Positions 9,899 through 18,925 of a stretch of DNA of 64,000 bases are shown here, piece by piece. A model generated the notes under the pieces. That model did not search any database, was not told the DNA's origin, and saw only the letters and a list, made by a program, of their open reading frames with translations. The position numbers and the translations under genes are program-made. The stretch is from Alloprevotella sp. (lineage in GTDB: Bacteria > Bacteroidota > Bacteroidia > Bacteroidales > Bacteroidaceae), in the NCBI GenBank assembly GCA_017477205.1, contig JAFUXE010000020.1, positions 1 through 64,000 on the forward strand, given 5' to 3'. Position 1 is the first letter of the stretch. Each line of letters begins with the position of its first letter.

Positions 9899-11047
9899 TC
9901 AGGAACAATCTGCTATGCGCCGCAGGGCTTCCTCAAGGTGGGCACGCGGACAGGCCAGGTTCAGGCGGATGTAGTCGCGGCCTGCCTCGCCGTACATGCT
10001 ACCGGCGTTGACGGCGACGCGAGCTTCGCGCAGAAGCCTCTCTGCATAGGTCTTGCCGTCCATGCCGGTACGGCGGATGTCCAACCATGCAAGGTAGGTG
10101 CCTTCAAGAGGCAGCACGCGCCAGGCGGGAAGATGCGAGGCAGCAAAATCGCAGAGGAAGCGGTAGTTTCCGTATAAATAAGCAAGAAGTTCCTTAAGCC
10201 ATGATTCGCCTTCATTGTAGGCAGCAATGAGGGCTTCAACGCCGAGAGGATTGACATCGCAAACCTCGTTGTCGTTGATGGCGCGGTCGATGCGGCGGCG
10301 CAAATCGGCATCCTCACATACGATGTTAGCTATCTGCAGACCGGCAATGTTGAAGTTCTTGCTGGGAGAGTTGAAGGTAACGATACGGCTGCGCACAGGC
10401 GTGTCCAAAGATGCGATAGGAGTGAAGCGTGCACCAGGGAAAACTAGTTCACAATGGATTTCGTCGGAGATCAGGTGTACGCGGTGCTTGTCGCAAAGCG
10501 CTGCCACGCGTTGCAGTTCGTCCTCACGCCAGACGCGGCCGCCAGGATTGTGGGGGTTGCAGAAGAGCAGTACCGTGCAGTCCTCCATGGCGAGGGCGTC
10601 TTCGAGGGCAGCAAAGTCTATGCGCTGGGCATCGTCAAGAAGCGGCACTTCAAGAGCCTGCAGGCCGTTATTGCGGATGGAGGAGAAAAAGCAGTTGTAA
10701 ACAGGCGTAAGTATGGCCACCTTTTCTCCAGGCTTCGCCAAGGCTTTCAGGGTTGCAGAAACAGCAGGTACGACACCGGAGGTGTACTGAATCCATTCGC
10801 GCTGTATCTCCCAGCCATGACGGCGGCGGAACCATCCGATGACGGCGTCATAGTAGCGGTCATCTACGTAGGTATAGCCGAACACGCCGTGTTCCACGCG
10901 GCGGCGCAGGGCATCCAGAATGCAGGGGGCGGCACGGAAGTCCATGTCCGCCACCCAGAGAGGTAGCACGTCGTCGGAAGGCATCTCGTCCCATTTCACA
11001 GAACCGGTGCCACGACGCGTGATGAGTTCATCGAAGTTATAGTTCAT
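9899..11047 (-). CDS. MalY/PatB-type PLP-dependent aminotransferase or C-S lyase
   Basis: This 382-residue fold-type I PLP enzyme has the MalY/PatB pattern: LPLWVADMDFRAAP near the N-terminus, a GVVPAVSATLKAL segment, CNPHNPGGRVW, SDEIHCELVF and the Schiff-base lysine in SPSKNFNIAGLQ. Characterised members split cystathionine or cysteine conjugates to pyruvate, ammonia and a thiol, and some act as aminotransferases. It lies 62 bases downstream of tyrA on the same strand, so it may be the last gene of the aromatic operon, where an aminotransferase role would fit. The sequence alone does not settle lyase against transaminase. Confidence 0.85.
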   Translation of the reverse strand: MNYNFDELITRRGTGSVKWDEMPSDDVLPLWVADMDFRAAPCILDALRRRVEHGVFGYTYVDDRYYDAVIGWFRRRHGWEIQREWIQYTSGVVPAVSATLKALAKPGEKVAILTPVYNCFFSSIRNNGLQALEVPLLDDAQRIDFAALEDALAMEDCTVLLFCNPHNPGGRVWREDELQRVAALCDKHRVHLISDEIHCELVFPGARFTPIASLDTPVRSRIVTFNSPSKNFNIAGLQIANIVCEDADLRRRIDRAINDNEVCDVNPLGVEALIAAYNEGESWLKELLAYLYGNYRFLCDFAASHLPAWRVLPLEGTYLAWLDIRRTGMDGKTYAERLLREARVAVNAGSMYGEAGRDYIRLNLACPRAHLEEALRRIADCS

Positions 11048-11109: not shown

Positions 11110-11883
11110 TTACCCGATGTTCCCTCTTATTCGGCGGAGGAAGGCATCCAGGGCAGCGGCGTCCTTACGGTCGATGATATCCAGAAGCGTCTTCAGTTCT
11201 TCACGGATACGAGCCACCTGACCACCCGTACGGGGGTTGAAAAGTATCTCGCGCAACAATGCATCGTCCTCGCCCAGCACGCCGCGTGCTATCTGCATAT
11301 GGCGCTTGAAGGTGGTGCCGGGCGCGTCCTGGTGCTTCATGACGGCGGCGAAGACAAAAGTGGAGACAAAGGGAATGGAGAGGCTGTAGGCCACCGTTTC
11401 GTCGTGTTCCTCAAAGGAATACTCGCAGATGTGGAGGCCAAGCCGACTGTAGAGGTCTCGGAAAAAGAGGCGTCCCATGTAGTCGCCTTCGCTGATGATA
11501 ATGGCATTCTCCTCTGTCAGCTTGCCAAGGTTGGCGAAGGTGGGACCGAACATGGGGTGCGTGGAGACAAAGCGGCGTCCGCAAGCCTCATAGAACTCAC
11601 GGAGTCCCGTCTTGACGCTGGCAATGTCGGCAAGGATGCAGTCTTCAGGGAGGTGGGGGAGAAAATCCACGAACGTGTCAACCGTATGCTGCAAGGTGAC
11701 GGCGTTGAGGGCCATCTCGGGAGCAAAGGTGTCAACCTCGCTGAATGAGGTGAAGCGCTGCGTGTTGTACATGAAGCGCAGGCGGCGCGGGTCTATGTCA
11801 TAGACGGCCACTTCGTGGTCGAAGCTGAGGAGGTCGGCAAAGAAGCTTCCCATCTTGCCGGCACCAATGATGAGGATTCTCAT
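11110..11883 (-). CDS. tyrA: Prephenate dehydrogenase
   Basis: The 257-residue protein is a TyrA-type dehydrogenase that oxidatively decarboxylates prephenate to 4-hydroxyphenylpyruvate, the precursor of tyrosine. It begins with a Rossmann nucleotide site (ILIIGAGKMGSFFADLL) and carries ADIASVKTGL and STHPMFGPT, which fit the substrate region of this family. At about 260 residues it is a short form without a fused chorismate mutase or ACT domain. That agrees with the mutase being fused to the DAHP synthase immediately upstream, 23 bases away. It is part of the pheA-led operon and so probably lies under the attenuator at 15076-15218. Confidence 0.9.
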   Translation of the reverse strand: MRILIIGAGKMGSFFADLLSFDHEVAVYDIDPRRLRFMYNTQRFTSFSEVDTFAPEMALNAVTLQHTVDTFVDFLPHLPEDCILADIASVKTGLREFYEACGRRFVSTHPMFGPTFANLGKLTEENAIIISEGDYMGRLFFRDLYSRLGLHICEYSFEEHDETVAYSLSIPFVSTFVFAAVMKHQDAPGTTFKRHMQIARGVLGEDDALLREILFNPRTGGQVARIREELKTLLDIIDRKDAAALDAFLRRIRGNIG

Positions 11884-11906: not shown

Positions 11907-12980
11907 TCAGTCCTTGTTCATTATCTCTACCTGCTGGCGGACACTCTCTTCGTGGATGGCCTCGAAGATGCTCTTCACGAAATCGTTCGACATGCCGCGC
12001 AACACGCCCTGCGCACCGCGTTTGGAAAGAATCTCACCATAGCGCCGTGTCTGCACGATGGTCATGTTGTGCTCCTTCTTGTAGGCACCGATTTCGCGAC
12101 TGATGCGCATGCGGTTTGCCAACTGTTCGAGCAGGGCGTTGTCCACATTGTCTATCTGCTTACGGAGACTTTCGAGAGTTTCCGTGGTCTGTGCAGAAGT
12201 GCGGATGACAAGCTTGTCGAGGATGAAGTCCAGAACATCCGGCGTCACCTGCTGCTTGGCGTCGCTCCATGCGCAGTCAGGGTTGCAGTGGGACTCTATC
12301 ATGAGACCATCGAAGCCCAGGTCCATCGCCTGCTGCGACAGGGGAGCGATGAGCTCGCGGCGTCCGCCCATGTGGGAGGGGTCGCAGAAGATTGGCAGGT
12401 CGTGGATGCGGCGACGCAGTTCGATAGGAACGTGCCACATGGGAAGGTTGCGGTAAAGGCGCTTCTCGTAGGTGGAGAAGCCTCGGTGGATGACACCCAT
12501 GCGCGTGATGCCGGCCTGGTTGATGCGTTCAAGACCGCCTATCCAGAGTTCCAAGTCCGGATTCACAGGGTTTTTGCAGAGGACAGGCTTATCCACACCG
12601 CGCAGGGCGTCGGCTACCTCCTGTACGGCAAAGGGGTTAGCCATCGTGCGAGCACCTATCCACAGGATATCGACATCGGCTTCAAGGGCTGCTGCCACAT
12701 GATGTGCCGTAGCCACTTCCGTAGCCGTCAGCATGCCGAGCTCGTTGTGTACGCGTTGCAGCCAGGGGAGGCCTTTCTCGCCAATGCCCTCAAAGCCGCC
12801 AGGCTTCGTGCGGGGTTTCCAGATGCCAGCGCGGAAGATGCGTACGCCGTAGGATGCCAGTTGGCGGGCGGTGTCCATCACTTGTTCCTCCGTCTCGGCG
12901 GAGCAGGGACCGGCAATGACGACAGGGCGTTGCTCTTCGTCAATCCCGGGAAGGGCGAGGGGTTGAAGTTTCAGTTCCAT
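11907..12980 (-). CDS. Bifunctional DAHP synthase / chorismate mutase
   Basis: The 357-residue fusion has a KDO8P-synthase-like DAHP synthase at residues ~1-265 (VIAGPCSAET, FRAGIWKPRTKPGGFEG, CKNPVNPDLELWIGG, FCDPSHMGGRREL) and an AroQ-type chorismate mutase at ~270-350 (ESLRKQIDNVDNALLEQLANRMRISREIGAYK). It joins the first step of the shikimate pathway to the branch step from chorismate to prephenate. This domain order, synthase first, is the one usual in Bacteroidota. It sits between the aminotransferase and tyrA on the same strand. Product inhibition through the mutase domain is known for related fusions and is inferred here. Confidence 0.93.
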   Translation of the reverse strand: MELKLQPLALPGIDEEQRPVVIAGPCSAETEEQVMDTARQLASYGVRIFRAGIWKPRTKPGGFEGIGEKGLPWLQRVHNELGMLTATEVATAHHVAAALEADVDILWIGARTMANPFAVQEVADALRGVDKPVLCKNPVNPDLELWIGGLERINQAGITRMGVIHRGFSTYEKRLYRNLPMWHVPIELRRRIHDLPIFCDPSHMGGRRELIAPLSQQAMDLGFDGLMIESHCNPDCAWSDAKQQVTPDVLDFILDKLVIRTSAQTTETLESLRKQIDNVDNALLEQLANRMRISREIGAYKKEHNMTIVQTRRYGEILSKRGAQGVLRGMSNDFVKSIFEAIHEESVRQQVEIMNKD

Positions 12981-13008: not shown

Positions 13009-14181
13009 CTATTGGCTGTTAAACTTATCACAGATTCTCCCCAGCGCTTCCCGCAGCTGCTCCTCCTTTGCGCAGAGCGAAATGCGGACATAGCGGCGCC
13101 CATTCTTTCCGAAGATGAAGCCTGGCGTGATGAACACATGGGCCTCATGGAGCACACGCTCGGTGAGTTCTTCCGCATCGGTGAAGCTGTCCGGGATGCG
13201 CCCCCAGAGGAACATACCCACCTGGTCGTCGCGGAAGGTACACCCCAGGGCTTCCAGAATTCTTTCTGCCAAACGGCGACGTCGCGCGTATATATTATAA
13301 TTGTGTTCCGTGTGCCAGTCCCCGCTGTTGTCTATCGCGGCGGCGGCAGCCAGCTGGAGGCCGCGGAACGTTCCGCTGTCGATATTACTCTTCACCTTCA
13401 GTACCCACGAGATGAAGTCGGCGCGGCCCACACACATGCCCACGCGCCATCCGGGCATGTTGTGGGACTTGGAGAGGGAGTTGAGTTCGATGCAGCAGTC
13501 CTTGGCTCCGGGAACGTTGAATATAGAGAGGGGAGCCTGCCGGGGAGGGCATAGGATGCGGGAATAGGGATTGTCGTTGACGATAAGGAAACCGTTCTTC
13601 CGTGCCAGTGCCACCAACTTGTCGTAGCATTCCCGGGAGGCGGGCGCACCCGTCGGCATGTGCGGATAGTTCGTCCACATCAGCCGGACGTGCGAGAGGT
13701 CTTTGTTGAACAAACTGGCAAAGTCAGGCTGTCCGTTTTCCAAAAGGTCGTACGTTTCCACCTTCGCCCCTAAAAGGCGCGAGAGGGACGTATAGGTGGG
13801 ATAGCCTGGATCCGGAACAAGTACCGTCTCACCCGGATTCACGAAGGCCAACGTTACGTGAAGGATGCCCTCCTTCGAGCCTATCAGCGGCAGCACCTCC
13901 GTCTCCGCATCGAGTGCGACTCCGTAGGTGCGTTCGTAGTAGCGTGCCATAGCCTCCCGCAGCTCGCGGGTTCCGCGTGTGGGCTGGTAGCCATGGGCAT
14001 CGGGGCGGCGTGCCACCTCGCAAAGCGTCTCTACGGTCGCCTCCGAAGGCGGCATGTCCGGACTGCCGATGGCAAGGCTGATGACGTCCTTCCCTTCCGC
14101 ATTCATCTGAGCCACCTCGCGCAGTTTCCGCGAGAAGTAGTATTCGCTGACCTGGGATAGTCTCTCTGCCGGCTGTATCAT
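13009..14181 (-). CDS. Class I/II aminotransferase (aromatic operon)
   Basis: This 390-residue fold-type I PLP aminotransferase has the expected landmarks: ISLAIGSPDMPPS at the N-terminus, GSKEGILHVTLAF, PDPGYPTYTSL, NYPHMPTGA, VNDNPYSRI and the lysine in ELNSLSKSHNMPGWRVG. Enzymes of this subgroup transfer amino groups between glutamate or aspartate and phenylpyruvate or hydroxyphenylpyruvate, among other keto acids. Lying between pheA and the DAHP synthase/chorismate mutase, its natural job is probably the last step to Phe and Tyr; this is inferred from position. The start ATG at 14181 is 24 bases after pheA. Confidence 0.88.
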   Translation of the reverse strand: MIQPAERLSQVSEYYFSRKLREVAQMNAEGKDVISLAIGSPDMPPSEATVETLCEVARRPDAHGYQPTRGTRELREAMARYYERTYGVALDAETEVLPLIGSKEGILHVTLAFVNPGETVLVPDPGYPTYTSLSRLLGAKVETYDLLENGQPDFASLFNKDLSHVRLMWTNYPHMPTGAPASRECYDKLVALARKNGFLIVNDNPYSRILCPPRQAPLSIFNVPGAKDCCIELNSLSKSHNMPGWRVGMCVGRADFISWVLKVKSNIDSGTFRGLQLAAAAAIDNSGDWHTEHNYNIYARRRRLAERILEALGCTFRDDQVGMFLWGRIPDSFTDAEELTERVLHEAHVFITPGFIFGKNGRRYVRISLCAKEEQLREALGRICDKFNSQ

Positions 14182-14205: not shown

Positions 14206-15036
14206 TCAACTCCCCCTATACTCTCCCAGCACGTGCAGTTCGCGTATCAGCGGGCGCACGGCCTCGATGCTCTGACGGTAGCGATGGTAGTCGTCATAGG
14301 TCACGTCCACGTAGAAGAGATACTCCCATTCGCGCCCGATGATGGGCAGGGACTGGATTTTCGTAAGGTTTATCTGGTAGAAGCTGAAAATGCTGAGCAC
14401 TTGCGAGAGGCTTCCCGCCGAGTGGGGCAGGGAGAATACGATGCTGGCCTTGTCCGAAGCTTTCACATCGCGCAGTTCTGCCGCCTGCTCCGGATGCGCC
14501 AGCACCAGAAAGCGCGTAAAGTTGTGCTTGTTGTCCTCAATGGCGCGGTGCAGCACGCGTAGGCCGTAGCGTTCGGCTGCATCCGCATGGCAGATGGCGG
14601 CATGACCGCGAAGCCCTTCGCGTGCGATGCGGGCCGCTGCGGCCGCCGTGTCGTCCGTCTCCACCACTTTCAACTGCGGATGTGCCGTCAGGAACTCGCG
14701 ACACTGCTGTAACGCCACGGGATGGGAGTTCACCTCGCAGAGGCTTTCAGCATCTTCGTCGGGCAGGCAGGCCAGGGCGTGCTCTATGTGTAGTTTCTGC
14801 TCGCCCACGATGGTAGTCCGGCACTGTCGCAGCAGCTCGTAGTTTCTCAGCAGGGAACCCGCAATGGTGTTCTCAATCGCGGCCAGTGCCACGAGGCTCT
14901 CATCGTCCGCAAGTCTGCGGAACAGTTCCTCAAAGGAGTCGCAGCACACCAGCTCCACCTCCTCGTCGTCGAAGAAAAGGCGGGCGGCAATGTCGTGGAA
15001 CGACCCCTCAATACCCTGAATGGCTATTCTGCGCAT
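14206..15036 (-). CDS. pheA: Prephenate dehydratase
   Basis: The 276-residue enzyme converts prephenate to phenylpyruvate. The catalytic region (about residues 3-180) shows AIQGIEGSFHDIAA, AAIENTIAGSL and the hallmark Thr-Arg-Phe in KHNFTRFLVLA. A C-terminal ACT domain (about 195-270, SIVFSLPHSAGSLSQVLSIF, with PIIGREWEYLFYVD) normally binds phenylalanine for feedback inhibition. The start at 15036 matches the family N-terminus, although the frame stays open for 13 more codons upstream. It is the first structural gene of the Phe/Tyr operon. Its leader contains a Tyr/Phe-rich short reading frame and an intrinsic terminator (see 15076-15218). Confidence 0.94.
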   Translation of the reverse strand: MRRIAIQGIEGSFHDIAARLFFDDEEVELVCCDSFEELFRRLADDESLVALAAIENTIAGSLLRNYELLRQCRTTIVGEQKLHIEHALACLPDEDAESLCEVNSHPVALQQCREFLTAHPQLKVVETDDTAAAAARIAREGLRGHAAICHADAAERYGLRVLHRAIEDNKHNFTRFLVLAHPEQAAELRDVKASDKASIVFSLPHSAGSLSQVLSIFSFYQINLTKIQSLPIIGREWEYLFYVDVTYDDYHRYRQSIEAVRPLIRELHVLGEYRGS

Positions 15037-15075
15037 GATGTCAGTTCTTTTCTTTCTTGTTTTGCTACATCTCAC

Positions 15076-15118
15076 AAAAAAATCCCGTCTCGTCAGATGA
15101 CTTCTGAGTGCGGGATTT
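15076..15118 (-). terminator. Intrinsic terminator in pheA leader (attenuator)
   Basis: Read on the minus strand, AAATCCCG at 15118-15111 pairs with CGGGATTT at 15087-15080, enclosing a smaller TCAG/CTGA hairpin, and is followed by a run of seven T residues. This is a complete rho-independent terminator placed between a short Tyr/Phe-rich reading frame and pheA. The upstream segment GCGGGGT (15163-15157) can pair with ATCCCGC (15116-15110), taking over the 5' arm of the terminator with seven pairs including one G-U. That gives a mutually exclusive antiterminator. Confidence 0.78.
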
Positions 15119-15143
15119 CTTCGTTTGGATTATCCGGTTCGTT

Positions 15144-15218
15144 CTATGCACGAAGCACCCCGCTCTGCTTGTCGGCAAAGTAATAGAAATACTGTGCAAA
15201 GTGAACGTTTCCGTACAT
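15144..15218 (-). CDS. Phe/Tyr leader peptide of the aromatic operon
   Basis: The short frame encodes 24 residues from ATG at 15218 to TAG at 15144. Seven of the 24 are aromatic (four Tyr, three Phe), and the segment HFAQYFYYFADK contains five aromatics in a row (codons 10-14: Tyr, Phe, Tyr, Tyr, Phe). It lies about 31 bases after a well-formed promoter and ends before an intrinsic terminator that precedes pheA. This is the layout of a ribosome-mediated attenuator: scarcity of charged tRNA-Tyr or tRNA-Phe would stall the ribosome at the run, leaving the antiterminator segment at 15163-15157, about 14 bases downstream, free to pair. The frame is too short for routine gene calling. No homologue search was possible. 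Confidence 0.78.
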   Translation of the reverse strand: MYGNVHFAQYFYYFADKQSGVLRA

Positions 15219-15248
15219 AGTTTCCTTCCTGAAAGTTCGTTTTCGGTG

Positions 15249-15279
15249 CAAAGATAGTGCAAAACGTTAGCAGTAGCAA
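15249..15279 (-). promoter_or_regulatory. Promoter of the Phe/Tyr operon leader
   Basis: On the minus strand TTG (15279-15277) is followed after 20 bases by TATCTTTG (15256-15249), a very good match to the Bacteroidota promoter pattern. Transcription would start near 15243, about 25 bases before the leader peptide ATG. Confidence 0.7.
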
Positions 15280-15452
15280 GCCTTCGCCCGCATTTTTTCA
15301 CATTTCGTCCCGTTTCCGAGAGGATTCCAAGGGTTCTCCTCCCCGCATACGCCCGCAGGCAGCTTCGCGGAATGCGCATGACAAAACGAGGAAAAAGCAC
15401 ACCCGGAACGCAAAAAAAAGCACTCCCGGAGCGATATGTACCAGAATTTTGC

Positions 15453-15460
15453 TAACTTCG
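15453..15460 (+). promoter_or_regulatory. Possible -7 element upstream of sialidase (TAACTTCG)
   Basis: TAACTTCG lies 33 bases before the sialidase ATG and resembles the TAnnTTTG element with one change. No clear -33 partner was found, so it is tentative. The 15280-15452 stretch shows no other feature I can support. Confidence 0.35.
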
Positions 15461-15493
15461 CCCCCAAATACCATAACAAACACGAACAGAATC

Positions 15494-18400
15494 ATGAGAA
15501 AACATCTGCTCCTCGTCCTGCTTTGCACCTTATTCAGCCTCATCAGTGCACAGGCGGAAACCATCACATTCAACGTAAGTCCCGGTACGGGACAATGCCT
15601 CAAGGGCGGCTCCACGGCGGGCACCACAGCTGGTCACTATTTCAACACGTGGAAGTCCACGAAGACTGCCCCGCAACTCTCCGTGACCACGTCAAAGAAC
15701 GACATGTGGATACACACGAATACCTCCAGCGTTCACTACTTCGGCGGCTGCCGCTTCACCCTCACCGTCACAGACGGCTACATCATCACGGGCTACAGCT
15801 TTGACTTCCTGGGCTATGACGGCAACAGCAACAGCTATACAACACGCAAGGAAATGACCGTGCAGGACGCGGGCGGCAATGAATACAAATGCGCCACCAC
15901 CGCCACGGGACGCGTGGAAGTCAAGGACCTGGAGAGCAGCACCACCTACTTCGACGTCGTGGGTCCCGTGACGGGCAACGGCAACGTGCTGGTGACTAAT
16001 TTTGAGGTCTATGTTGAGACCAAACCCAACACGCTCCAGCCTTTCCAGCCCACCCAGATTACGGACGGCGCCTTTGCCGACGACACACAGTGGTACACCC
16101 TCGAGGTGAAAGCCTTCGGACGCCAGGCCTATCGCGCCAGCGACACGAGCGTGGAACTCCGCAACAACGATCCCCTGAGCGAGGAGGATGCCTACCTCTG
16201 GTGCTTCGTGGGCGACCGCGAGCAGGGCTTCAAGGTTTACAACAAGGCCGCAGGCCCCACGAAGTGCTACGTTGTCGCACGCAGTGGCCTGACGAACGGA
16301 TCCGCACCTCGCTTCGTGACGGAAGCCGGCATGAGCGAGACGCAGTACGACGCCCGCTGGTATTTCACCGAATCCACCTATGACCCCAGCCTCGTCGGCT
16401 ACAGACCCGTCTATATGTCCCCGTCGTTCAACACGACCTACGCGCTGAACGACTATCAGGAGAACGGCGCACTGAAGTTCTGGGACGGCCGCGGACTGGG
16501 CTCCACGGTGACCATTTGCCCGCAGGGACGCGTAGTTCCTGAGGACAAGGCACGCACCGTGAAGGTGTTCGACAATGCCAACAGCAGCGTACCCTACCGC
16601 ATTCCCGCATTGGCAAAGACCGCGGACGGCAAGCTCATCCTCGTCGTGGACTACCGCTACAGCAAGGCCGACATCGGCAACGGCCCCATCGACCTGCGCT
16701 ATAAGATAAGCTCCGACAACGGCCGCACATGGAGCCAGGAATACACGAACCTCGGCGACGGCGACGTCTCGAAGGCCAGCGGCAACCAGTGGGACTACGC
16801 CTTTGGCGACCCCAGCATCGTGGCCGACTGCGAAGACCCCAACGAAGTACTTGTCATCGCCGTGGGCGGACACGTGGGCTACTTCAGCAGCACATACGCC
16901 AACCCGCAGCACGTCGTACGCTTCCGCAGTCACGACGGCGGCACCACGTGGACGAAGGGCGACTCCCTGACATACCAAATCTACAACCTCTACCAAAATA
17001 GTGCTAAGGGCAACACCGTCGGCATCTTCCTCACCTCCGGTAAAATCATGCAGAGCCGCTACGTCAAGGCCGGCTCCCACTATCGCCTTTACATCGCCCA
17101 CCCCTTCCGCGGCGACAACGGCCAATGCTGCTTCGTCATCTATTCGGACGACTTCGGCGAGACGTGGAAGGTTCTGGGCGGCAACAAGACCATTGCCAGC
17201 ACGGGCATGGACGAAAGTAAGATTGAGGAACTCCCGGACGGCAGCGTTGTCATCAGTAGCCGTAACCAGAGCGGCGGTCGCGTCGTGAACGTCTATACCT
17301 ACACGGACTCCAAGACGGCAGAGGGCGCATGGAGCACAACGGCCACACCCGCACCTATGGCCAGCGGAAAGGTGAACGCCTGCAACGGCGAAATCCTCGT
17401 TGTCCCCGCCAAGCGCAATGCGGACGGCAAGCAGCTCTACGTGGCCCTGCAGTCCGTCCCGATGAGCACCAGCCGCCAGTACGTAGGCTTCTACTACAAA
17501 GAACTGGCTTCTGCGGCAGACTTCATTACGGGCGCGAAGATGGCAGAGAACTGGCAGAGCGGCCTGCGCGTATCGCAGACCACGTCGTGCTACTCCACGA
17601 TGGTGATGATGGACGACAACAACATCGGCTTCGTCTATGAGGAGAACAGCTACAACGGCGGCTACGACATCGTATTCAAAGCCCTCTCGCTGGACACCAT
17701 CACGGGCGGCGCCTACACCTACGACCCCAGCTTCACCGATCGCAGCGCCTACTTCCGCAGCAGTCTCAGCGAACGCATGCCGGAAGTGGAAAGCGGCGGA
17801 ACCATCGTGGGACAGATTTCCGACCTCGGCGACTTCGAGACGGCTCGCGAGGCATTCGAAAAGAATCCCACACAGGAAAGCATGGAGAGCGTATGGCGAC
17901 TCTACAGCGAAGGACTGCCCACCATACCCCTGCTCACGAACCGCCCCTACCGCCTGCGCAACCTGAAGGAATACAAGACAGGCGACATTCGCTACATGGC
18001 TATGGACGCCTCCACTACGACCACACACACCAACAGCACGCTGACTACGGACGAACTCTTCGTGTTCCTTCCCGGCACAACGGAAGGACAATATTATATT
18101 TATTGTCCGCAATACCAACGCTACGTGGGACGCACGGGCGCCAACGAGACGAAAGTTGCCTACGTTTCCTCCACCGCCCTGGCCGGACGCTACTCTGTGG
18201 CCTCCGACGTTTCGGGCCGCAGCACGCTGGTCTGCAACAACCCGACGGGCACCAACAGCGCCCTCCACTGCGCCAGCGACGGACGCGTCGTACCCTGGCA
18301 GGCTCCCACCGAGGCCTCTGGTTGGAACATCATCCCCGTTACGGAGTGGAACGTTGCGCTCAGCGACTGCGAGCATTTCTCCGCAGCGGCTGTAAACATG

Positions 18401-18925
18401 CCGTTCGCATATACTCTGCCAGAAGCTGTCAATGCATACAGAATTCCCAATATCAATGAGTCCGGGGAAGCCAACGTCGAAGAAATCTCCTCCCCAGTTT
18501 TCATTAGTTCGGATACCCCCGTTCTACTTCTCAGCCGTGATGGCGAAGAGCAAGTTACCCTTACCATTCCCGACCAACTTGAAGAAGTGGACGTGACAGA
18601 AGTAGCAACAACCAACATTCTGAAAGGGGCACTCCTCCGAACGACTGCGGAAAATGTCGGCATCTTTGCCTTCAAGAATGGCCGTGCAGGTTTCTATCCT
18701 GATGCCAAGTTAGCCAACATGACTACCATTCCAGCAAACAGTGCATACCTCACGGACGTTCCCACAGCAGGTGTTCCACTGAACTACACCATGCTCAACG
18801 TCGGCATCAGCTCCCCGTCAACGGATAATGGTCAATGGTCAATGGTCTTCGACCTCCAAGGCCGCCGCGTGCAGAAGACCACGAAGGGCGTGTACATCGA
18901 GAACGGCAGGAAAGTATTGAAGTAA
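15494..18925 (+). CDS. Secreted exo-alpha-sialidase with T9SS-like C-terminal tail
   Basis: The 1143-residue protein has a signal peptide (LLLVLLCTLFSLISAQA) and two N-terminal beta-rich modules (about 22-340) that may bind carbohydrate. A GH33 six-bladed sialidase domain follows (about 360-750). The first arginine of the triad is in YRIPAL (Arg369), Asp boxes lie near residues 406 (SSDNGRTW), 479 (SHDGGTTW) and 551 (SDDFGETW), and a nucleophile Tyr candidate is in CYSTMV near 699. Later modules end in VFDLQGRR...GVYIENGRKVLK, typical of T9SS-sorted proteins. It releases terminal sialic acid from glycoconjugates outside the cell. The upstream frame is open, but only this start gives a signal peptide. 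About 18400-18810 is less GC-rich than the rest. Confidence 0.88.
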   Translation: MRKHLLLVLLCTLFSLISAQAETITFNVSPGTGQCLKGGSTAGTTAGHYFNTWKSTKTAPQLSVTTSKNDMWIHTNTSSVHYFGGCRFTLTVTDGYIITGYSFDFLGYDGNSNSYTTRKEMTVQDAGGNEYKCATTATGRVEVKDLESSTTYFDVVGPVTGNGNVLVTNFEVYVETKPNTLQPFQPTQITDGAFADDTQWYTLEVKAFGRQAYRASDTSVELRNNDPLSEEDAYLWCFVGDREQGFKVYNKAAGPTKCYVVARSGLTNGSAPRFVTEAGMSETQYDARWYFTESTYDPSLVGYRPVYMSPSFNTTYALNDYQENGALKFWDGRGLGSTVTICPQGRVVPEDKARTVKVFDNANSSVPYRIPALAKTADGKLILVVDYRYSKADIGNGPIDLRYKISSDNGRTWSQEYTNLGDGDVSKASGNQWDYAFGDPSIVADCEDPNEVLVIAVGGHVGYFSSTYANPQHVVRFRSHDGGTTWTKGDSLTYQIYNLYQNSAKGNTVGIFLTSGKIMQSRYVKAGSHYRLYIAHPFRGDNGQCCFVIYSDDFGETWKVLGGNKTIASTGMDESKIEELPDGSVVISSRNQSGGRVVNVYTYTDSKTAEGAWSTTATPAPMASGKVNACNGEILVVPAKRNADGKQLYVALQSVPMSTSRQYVGFYYKELASAADFITGAKMAENWQSGLRVSQTTSCYSTMVMMDDNNIGFVYEENSYNGGYDIVFKALSLDTITGGAYTYDPSFTDRSAYFRSSLSERMPEVESGGTIVGQISDLGDFETAREAFEKNPTQESMESVWRLYSEGLPTIPLLTNRPYRLRNLKEYKTGDIRYMAMDASTTTTHTNSTLTTDELFVFLPGTTEGQYYIYCPQYQRYVGRTGANETKVAYVSSTALAGRYSVASDVSGRSTLVCNNPTGTNSALHCASDGRVVPWQAPTEASGWNIIPVTEWNVALSDCEHFSAAAVNMPFAYTLPEAVNAYRIPNINESGEANVEEISSPVFISSDTPVLLLSRDGEEQVTLTIPDQLEEVDVTEVATTNILKGALLRTTAENVGIFAFKNGRAGFYPDAKLANMTTIPANSAYLTDVPTAGVPLNYTMLNVGISSPSTDNGQWSMVFDLQGRRVQKTTKGVYIENGRKVLK
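18816..18847 (+). repeat. AATGGTC tandem repeat encoding a DNGQWSM linker
   Basis: A short tandem repeat of the AATGGTC type lies inside the sialidase gene and encodes TDNGQWSM directly before the C-terminal VFDLQGRR tail. A sequence-related repeat occupies the same place in the C10 protease gene (23991-24041). Confidence 0.65.

Follow-up and report, generated by a model that had tools for sequence, protein, structure and literature searches.

The 64,000-nt stretch of DNA analysed here, referred to as the window (Alloprevotella sp., GCA_017477205.1, contig JAFUXE010000020.1, positions 1-64,000 of the forward strand), carries in front of pheA what is very probably a ribosome-mediated transcription attenuator that senses the supply of phenylalanine and tyrosine jointly. 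As far as sequence and comparison can establish them, its elements are a leader frame, a terminator, a pairing that competes with the terminator, conservation at the RNA level, and a match between the leader codons and the content of the operon behind. An earlier note on this DNA had read the region as a PheL-type attenuator; our analysis supports that reading, with the anatomy appearing as described and the frame and hairpin kept in close relatives.

Leader anatomy and operon

The following features of the leader were assigned, all on the minus strand:

15249..15279, minus strand: candidate Bacteroidota-type promoter, TTG ... TATCTTTG, by sequence reading; TATCTTTG ends at 15249
15144..15218, minus strand: predicted leader peptide gene of 24 codons, MYGNVHFAQYFYYFADKQSGVLRA, ATG to TAG, by sequence reading and relatives
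15177..15191, minus strand: control codons Tyr-Phe-Tyr-Tyr-Phe, by sequence reading
15175..15180, minus strand: possible segment 1 (CUUUGC), from the minimum-energy fold; contains the last Phe codon
15157..15163, minus strand: segment 2 (GCGGGGT), 5' half of the antiterminator; pairs with ATCCCGC at 15116-15110
15151..15155, minus strand: segment 2b (CTTCG), second antiterminator helix; pairs with CGAAG at 15123-15119
15110..15123, minus strand: segment 3 (CGAAGAAATCCCGC), 3' half of the antiterminator; 15120-15110 doubles as the 5' arm of the terminator
15076..15120, minus strand: predicted intrinsic terminator, hairpin 15120-15078 with a T7 tract at 15082-15076

Direct reading of the sequence confirms the 24-codon frame with Tyr-Phe-Tyr-Tyr-Phe that the earlier note had placed at 15218-15144. 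The two strands of the window contain 1002 ATG frames of 8 to 60 codons when nested starts are counted, and no other of them has five consecutive Phe or Tyr codons. The terminator with its T7 tract is also present where it had been claimed, 40 bases before pheA, with a hairpin of -16.3 kcal/mol; it nevertheless escaped a simple consensus scan of the window, its stem being interrupted. The leader stop lies 107 nt from pheA, with the terminator in between. The proposed mutually exclusive pairing of GCGGGGT with ATCCCGC holds as well, and to it we add the second helix, CTTCG/CGAAG. The antiterminator duplex reaches -19.2 kcal/mol, compared with -9.7 (sd 2.2) in dinucleotide shuffles, none of 60 being equally good. 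The region 15250-15040 as a whole folds at -54.8 kcal/mol (z -3.12; 1 of 200 shuffles equally good), and in the minimum-energy fold of the window CUUUGC (15180-15175) is paired with GCAGAG (15168-15163), a possible 1:2 hairpin.

Of the "good promoter" claimed upstream, TATCTTTG is there, ending at 15249. Against it, the simple consensus scan lists no promoter at the leader, and what stands at -33 is just TTG. The name promoter is given to TATCTTTG on the strength of TTTG/TAnnTTTG, which we take to be the Bacteroidota consensus. Among relatives, 105 of 126 loci have TAnnTTTG within the 75 nt that precede the leader start; in a control stretch 80 to 150 nt upstream, 8 of 121 have it. A divergent gene (15257-18925, plus strand, neuraminidase/BNR matches) starts beside the attenuator promoter, and the GTG listed for it probably lies upstream of the real start.

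Behind the leader, a mixed Phe/Tyr operon of pheA, aminotransferase, DAHP synthase/chorismate mutase and tyrA had been claimed, and domain matches were found for all four genes:

14206..15036, minus strand: pheA, prephenate dehydratase with an ACT-like end, ATG at 15036 (PF00800 1.4e-53; ACT match below cut-off)
13009..14181, minus strand: aminotransferase class I/II (PF00155 4.9e-59)
11907..12980, minus strand: DAHP synthase / chorismate mutase (PF00793 and PF01817)
11110..11883, minus strand: tyrA, prephenate dehydrogenase (PF02153 1.5e-8)
9899..11047, minus strand: PatB-type aminotransferase / C-S lyase (TIGR04350 436.7 bits, over cut-off)

The PatB-type gene is possibly the last gene of the operon, judging solely from a gap of 62 bases.

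Proposed mechanism

We infer that the ribosome stalls, that coupling operates and which way the response runs. The ribosome would trail RNA polymerase through the leader frame and, when charged tRNA-Phe or tRNA-Tyr is scarce, would stall in the aromatic run, leaving segment 2 free to pair with segment 3 as the antiterminator; the 3:4 terminator could then not form in time and pheA-aminotransferase-aroF/aroQ-tyrA would be transcribed. With both charged tRNAs plentiful, the ribosome would reach the stop codon and cover segment 2 (or segment 2 would re-pair with segment 1), segment 3 would pair with segment 4, and transcription would end before pheA.

Computed folds of the window leader are consistent with this scheme. 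A ribosome stalled at Tyr12 or Phe14 allows an antiterminator of -19.0 kcal/mol to fold while segment 4 is still to be transcribed. Once the ribosome stands at the stop codon, the antiterminator region has no structure (0.0) and the terminator can form. On the full-length transcript the terminator exceeds the antiterminator in stability, also behind a stalled ribosome (-26.5, -25.5), so that the model needs co-transcriptional timing; timing likewise decides in known attenuators. The median distance from the last aromatic codon to the start of segment 2 is 11 nt. With an assumed footprint of -18..+12, a ribosome that has reached the stop codon overlaps segment 2 in 111 of 128 loci and misses it in 17 of 128, and at these 17 the 1:2 hairpin would be required.

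Spread among relatives

The comparison set comprises 138 pheA upstream regions, namely the window and 137 loci that are the closest pheA matches. The first set was the best 80 of 531 relatives' pheA loci from one scan of genome contigs. Searches of the phylum and the order, in which 258 of 296 and 49 of 119 genomes, respectively, had a PheA match, contributed 30 kept loci each, some of them shared, and L081-L083 were removed as duplicates before counting. Being closest matches, the samples are biased toward near pheA relatives and are not phylogenetically independent. A leader was scored when a short frame had at least 5 Phe, Tyr or Trp codons within 7.

Such a frame is found in 127 of the 138 regions, window included (by set 74/80, 27/29 and 25/28, plus the window), and a hairpin with a T tract follows it in 126 of 127. 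On the matter of relatives that keep pheA without an aromatic frame or terminator, which the earlier note had named as evidence against itself, these close relatives favour the claim. A gapless segment 2:3 helix of at least 6 bp (G-U allowed) lies just past the aromatic codons in 122 of 126 leaders. As background, an F/Y frame of this kind occurs in 34 of 4587 windows of 450 nt taken elsewhere in these loci; the hairpin is also present in 7 of those 34, six of the seven being pheA leaders on reverse-oriented loci.

Eleven of the 138 regions are without a leader (L001, L010, L011, L044, L064, L079, L096, L110, L123, L127 and L137). L011 and L079 have less than 150 nt of upstream DNA in the data, and L123 and L137 (4/7 aromatic) were left out of the promoter, residue and codon-versus-operon counts. 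It counts against the claim that L001, the nearest relative, with a PheA 80% identical and its genes in the same order, is without a leader in L001:2150-2574; the attenuator seems to have been lost there, since TATCTTTG stands directly before pheA. By eye, the aromatic frame upstream of position 6001 in L010 continues without a stop into pheA, owing either to a frameshift within the run or to faulty assembly, and the frames directly upstream in L044 and L110 resemble trpA and aroA, respectively.

Farther out, 33 of 60 larger phylum regions (L265-L324) have a leader, the more distant pheA genes often being without one; within this sample it is present in 33 of 40 regions where another aromatic gene is chained to pheA and in 0 of 20 with a lone pheA. 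The leaders of Parabacteroides distasonis and Bacteroides finegoldii, read by eye, are MNRFSFTYYFYYFYFSRVRAGVCM and MKSFTYAYYFFFYFYFSNKVEREFVCIK; no gene is annotated at either in the plasmid-collection tables, which are incomplete.

Conservation at the RNA level

The alignment used for the covariation test holds 62 hand-chosen sequences of the 87 listed (L113 and 24 others were left out). The terminator stem has 93.1% of cells paired over these 62 sequences and a covariation of 0.392 against 0.233 for shuffled alignments (0/500), and all five of its measures lie above nearly every shuffle (at most 3/500). The antiterminator has 90.1% of cells paired and a covariation of 0.271 against 0.160 (0/500) in the same sequences, but two of its five measures do not rise above the shuffles, these being pairs with changes on both sides (35/500) and further pair types (343/500). 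Slid controls score much lower in the covariation test.

The segment 2:3 duplex of a locus is better than all 60 of its shuffles in 96 of the 126 leader loci, at least one of the 60 matching the real duplex in the remaining 30 of 126, and the median z over 128 is -4.3. When segments were swapped among 20 hand-picked divergent loci, the mean was -18.3 for own and -10.2 for swapped partners, and the own partner ranked best in 14 of 20 and within the top three at all 20 loci. Segment 4 nearly repeats segment 2, and the two compete for segment 3. In P. vulgatus segments 2/3/4 read GAAGCGGGA / TCCCGCTTC / GAAGCGGGA, and divergent loci carry different but still matching segments such as GGTGGGAT/ATCCCACC, ATGAGAACTTC/GGAGTTCTCAT and GCCGGAGG/CCTCCGGT.

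A GCGGG-type segment 2 motif is present in 79 loci, where it falls in the three reading frames in 40, 17 and 7 cases and past the leader stop in 15, which argues that segment 2 is conserved as RNA and not as peptide. Poor conservation of the C-terminal half of the peptide was considered and rejected, as the same RNA segment is read in other frames. The conserved parts of the alignment are the codons and the 2/3/4 repeats. The possible segment 1:2 pairing has weak support in relatives: its pairs hold in 58-62 of the 62 sequences in one register, but in columns that scarcely vary. Cores ending in Phe-Tyr-Phe use TTT TAC TTT in 65 of 69 loci, which are not independent, against 8.7% predicted by pheA codon usage; this preference suggests that the codons also act as RNA, perhaps as segment 1.

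Leader codons and operon content

The strongest evidence for sensing is that the leader codons track what the operon contains. Leaders outside pheA operons were found with an RNA model derived from the alignment. They were located before aminotransferase-DAHPS-tyrA (L198/L264), tyrA-DAHPS (L205/L263), aminotransferase-tyrA-DAHPS (L215/L262) and, by eye, tyrA (L212); a further one is L216, whose downstream gene lies beyond the available sequence. Weak RNA-model matches outside pheA operons at L217-L224 show no leader and were taken as chance terminators. These leaders outside pheA operons led to a test of codons against operon content on larger regions and family samples.

A lone pheA is preceded by a core with Phe and without Tyr in 11 of 11 leaders (three families: G326, G316 and nine G336-family loci), and all 145 of 145 leaders of operons that combine pheA with aminotransferase, tyrA or DAHPS genes have Tyr in the core. 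The corresponding p-values (Fisher 4e-17; rank test on the Tyr fraction 1.9e-8) are overstated because the loci are related. The count takes only leaders with at least 5/7 aromatic codons and omits all loci without a leader. Also omitted are L027, which has an extra ORF between pheA and the aminotransferase and a mixed leader; L239, a lone pheA whose MYFDFVFGFLFCFPKS has 4/7 and is below threshold; and seven of 16 G316-family loci (L333, L334, L336-L340), whose leaders duplicate kept ones and are all mixed. L307 was retained in the joint-operon group, though its frame may be due to chance.

Two joint operons, L236 and L253, have leaders that are nearly Phe-only (Tyr fraction 0.17 and 0.11). 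By eye, pheA in L236 is followed by a DAHP synthase gene and apparent aroB, aroD and aroC. The three lone-pheA genomes heading the families above have a separate tyrA operon with its own mixed leader. G338 gives no PF00800 match, an absence that is uncertain in a draft assembly, and the leader before its aminotransferase-tyrA-DAHPS genes contains six Tyr codons and one Trp codon but none for Phe. Both Phe and Tyr occur in 124 of the 126 leaders of the comparison set. Trp codons are seen in or near the Phe/Tyr run in 23 of these 126 (L092, L100 and L103, for example) and perhaps add Trp to the signal for DAHP synthase.

Tandem units and other amino-acid leaders

Two complete attenuators stand in series in 6 of 137 loci (L113, L116, L117, L138, L086 and L104). 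Both units read the same residues with separate 2/3/4 segments, and in 6 of 6 loci segments 2 and 3 pair more strongly within a unit than across units, with a smallest margin of 1.7 kcal/mol (L104). L216 has two aromatic frames, for which a second hairpin was not found.

Leaders of similar appearance were also observed before other operons, in counts made without a background control. Among Bacteroidales hisG loci (L141-L166), a frame with at least 4 His within 7 codons and a T-tract hairpin are present in 21 of 26, with two His units in series in L142, L154 and L162. Among trpE-family loci (L167-L194), a loose test finds a Trp-rich frame and a hairpin in 19 of 28; many of these leaders contain WWW, L173 looks like chance, and L174 has two units.

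Taken with moderate confidence, our broader reading is that Bacteroidota own a widely shared aromatic attenuator whose codons are rewritten with the operon, to Phe and Tyr (sometimes with Trp) before joint operons, to Phe before a lone pheA, and to Tyr without Phe where pheA is missing, and which some lineages have doubled into two self-contained serial units that pair more within than between and would give a sharper, gate-like response.

Alternative explanations

The same DNA could encode a small aromatic peptide that has a function of its own, or a small RNA ending at the terminator, with constant read-through to pheA and no sensing at all. Stalling rests on inference here, and a terminator 40 bases before the gene could be a mere upstream end. 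This reading would leave aside, however, that segment 2 is kept as RNA in three frames or past the stop, that it pairs with the terminator arm, and that the leader codons change along with the operon, and we regard it as quite improbable. Slightly less credence still goes to arrest by the nascent peptide, in which the aromatic peptide itself, and not a shortage of charged tRNA, would stall the ribosome, perhaps aided by a free amino acid in the role of cofactor. The dense alternation of F and Y, with a Phe-Tyr-Phe end in 69 of 126 cores, would suit such a peptide, but the order and number of F and Y vary, the flanking residues are not conserved, and the Phe-only cores before lone pheA genes are a better fit to codon reading.

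A leader RNA that binds a ligand or protein (a riboswitch, a T-box or the target of an RNA-binding protein) could also control the terminator, and a structured leader with exclusive folds is what it would look like. Rfam, however, gives no match in the window, in 15000-15300 at E up to 1, or in six relatives, and conservation is confined to the codons and repeats noted above; we rate this explanation as more improbable again. The least probable in our view is translational control or reinitiation, with translation of the leader setting that of pheA and not its transcription. Bacteroidetes are described as commonly having leader genes near structural genes, the distances peaking at 11-14 bp (PMC4833913), whereas the leader stop in the window is 107 nt from pheA and the terminator intervenes. 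Joint sensing of Phe and Tyr by ribosome-mediated attenuation remains our preferred reading.

Relation to known systems and significance

Leader-peptide attenuation is textbook knowledge for Proteobacteria. The PheL/pheA attenuator of Escherichia coli and other Gammaproteobacteria resembles the Bacteroidota leader in its short leader rich in product codons, its terminator before pheA and its competing antiterminator; PheL, however, reads Phe only, whereas the Bacteroidota leader reads Phe and Tyr and its operon also makes Tyr and the common precursor. The Rfam families include the proteobacterial Phe leader and the T-box, and the lack of an Rfam match means that there is no recognisable shared ancestry with PheL. 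IlvL and ThrL are known cases of one leader reading several amino acids made by one operon; they share this with the Bacteroidota leader and differ in the amino acids and phyla concerned. The comparative attenuation survey of Lopatovskaya et al. 2010 and older surveys in subscription journals may contain predictions for Bacteroidetes.

Structured 5' elements have been reported before pheA and hisG in Flavobacteriaceae, the pheA element in Flavobacterium psychrophilum among others, and the Flavobacterium transcriptome gave strong clues for leader-peptide attenuation before amino-acid operons (PMC9723704). The pheA element there is likewise a structured transcript before pheA without an Rfam hit, but the section that reports it mentions neither a peptide and its codons nor an antiterminator or any sensing of Tyr (PMC9723704). 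Salmonella mgtCBR is comparable to the tandem loci in having two short ORFs in one leader that control transcription but apparently has no repeated amino-acid attenuator like the tandem aromatic units (PMC3641672). Frames in 5' UTRs of B. thetaiotaomicron have been called reminiscent of leader peptides, and 'pheA' is absent from the main text of that paper (PMC7366714). Within open-licence PubMed Central, we found no description of the Phe/Tyr element besides the hint in PMC9723704. The mechanism as such is therefore known, and earlier work hints that the phylum has elements of this kind; it is the Phe/Tyr sensor, its spread, the codon changes and the doubling that are undescribed in the open-licence literature of PubMed Central.

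If a Phe/Tyr attenuator is conserved in Bacteroidota, the mechanism would be extended and a natural experiment provided in which the sensor codons change with the genes they control. Bacteroidota are a dominant gut phylum and their translation starts differ from those of E. coli, and such an attenuator would also bear on whether transcription-translation coupling in Bacteroidota suffices for classical attenuation. If true, and taken with the His and Trp leaders of the same build, the broader reading above would place ribosome-mediated attenuation among the main controls of amino-acid operons in Bacteroidota.
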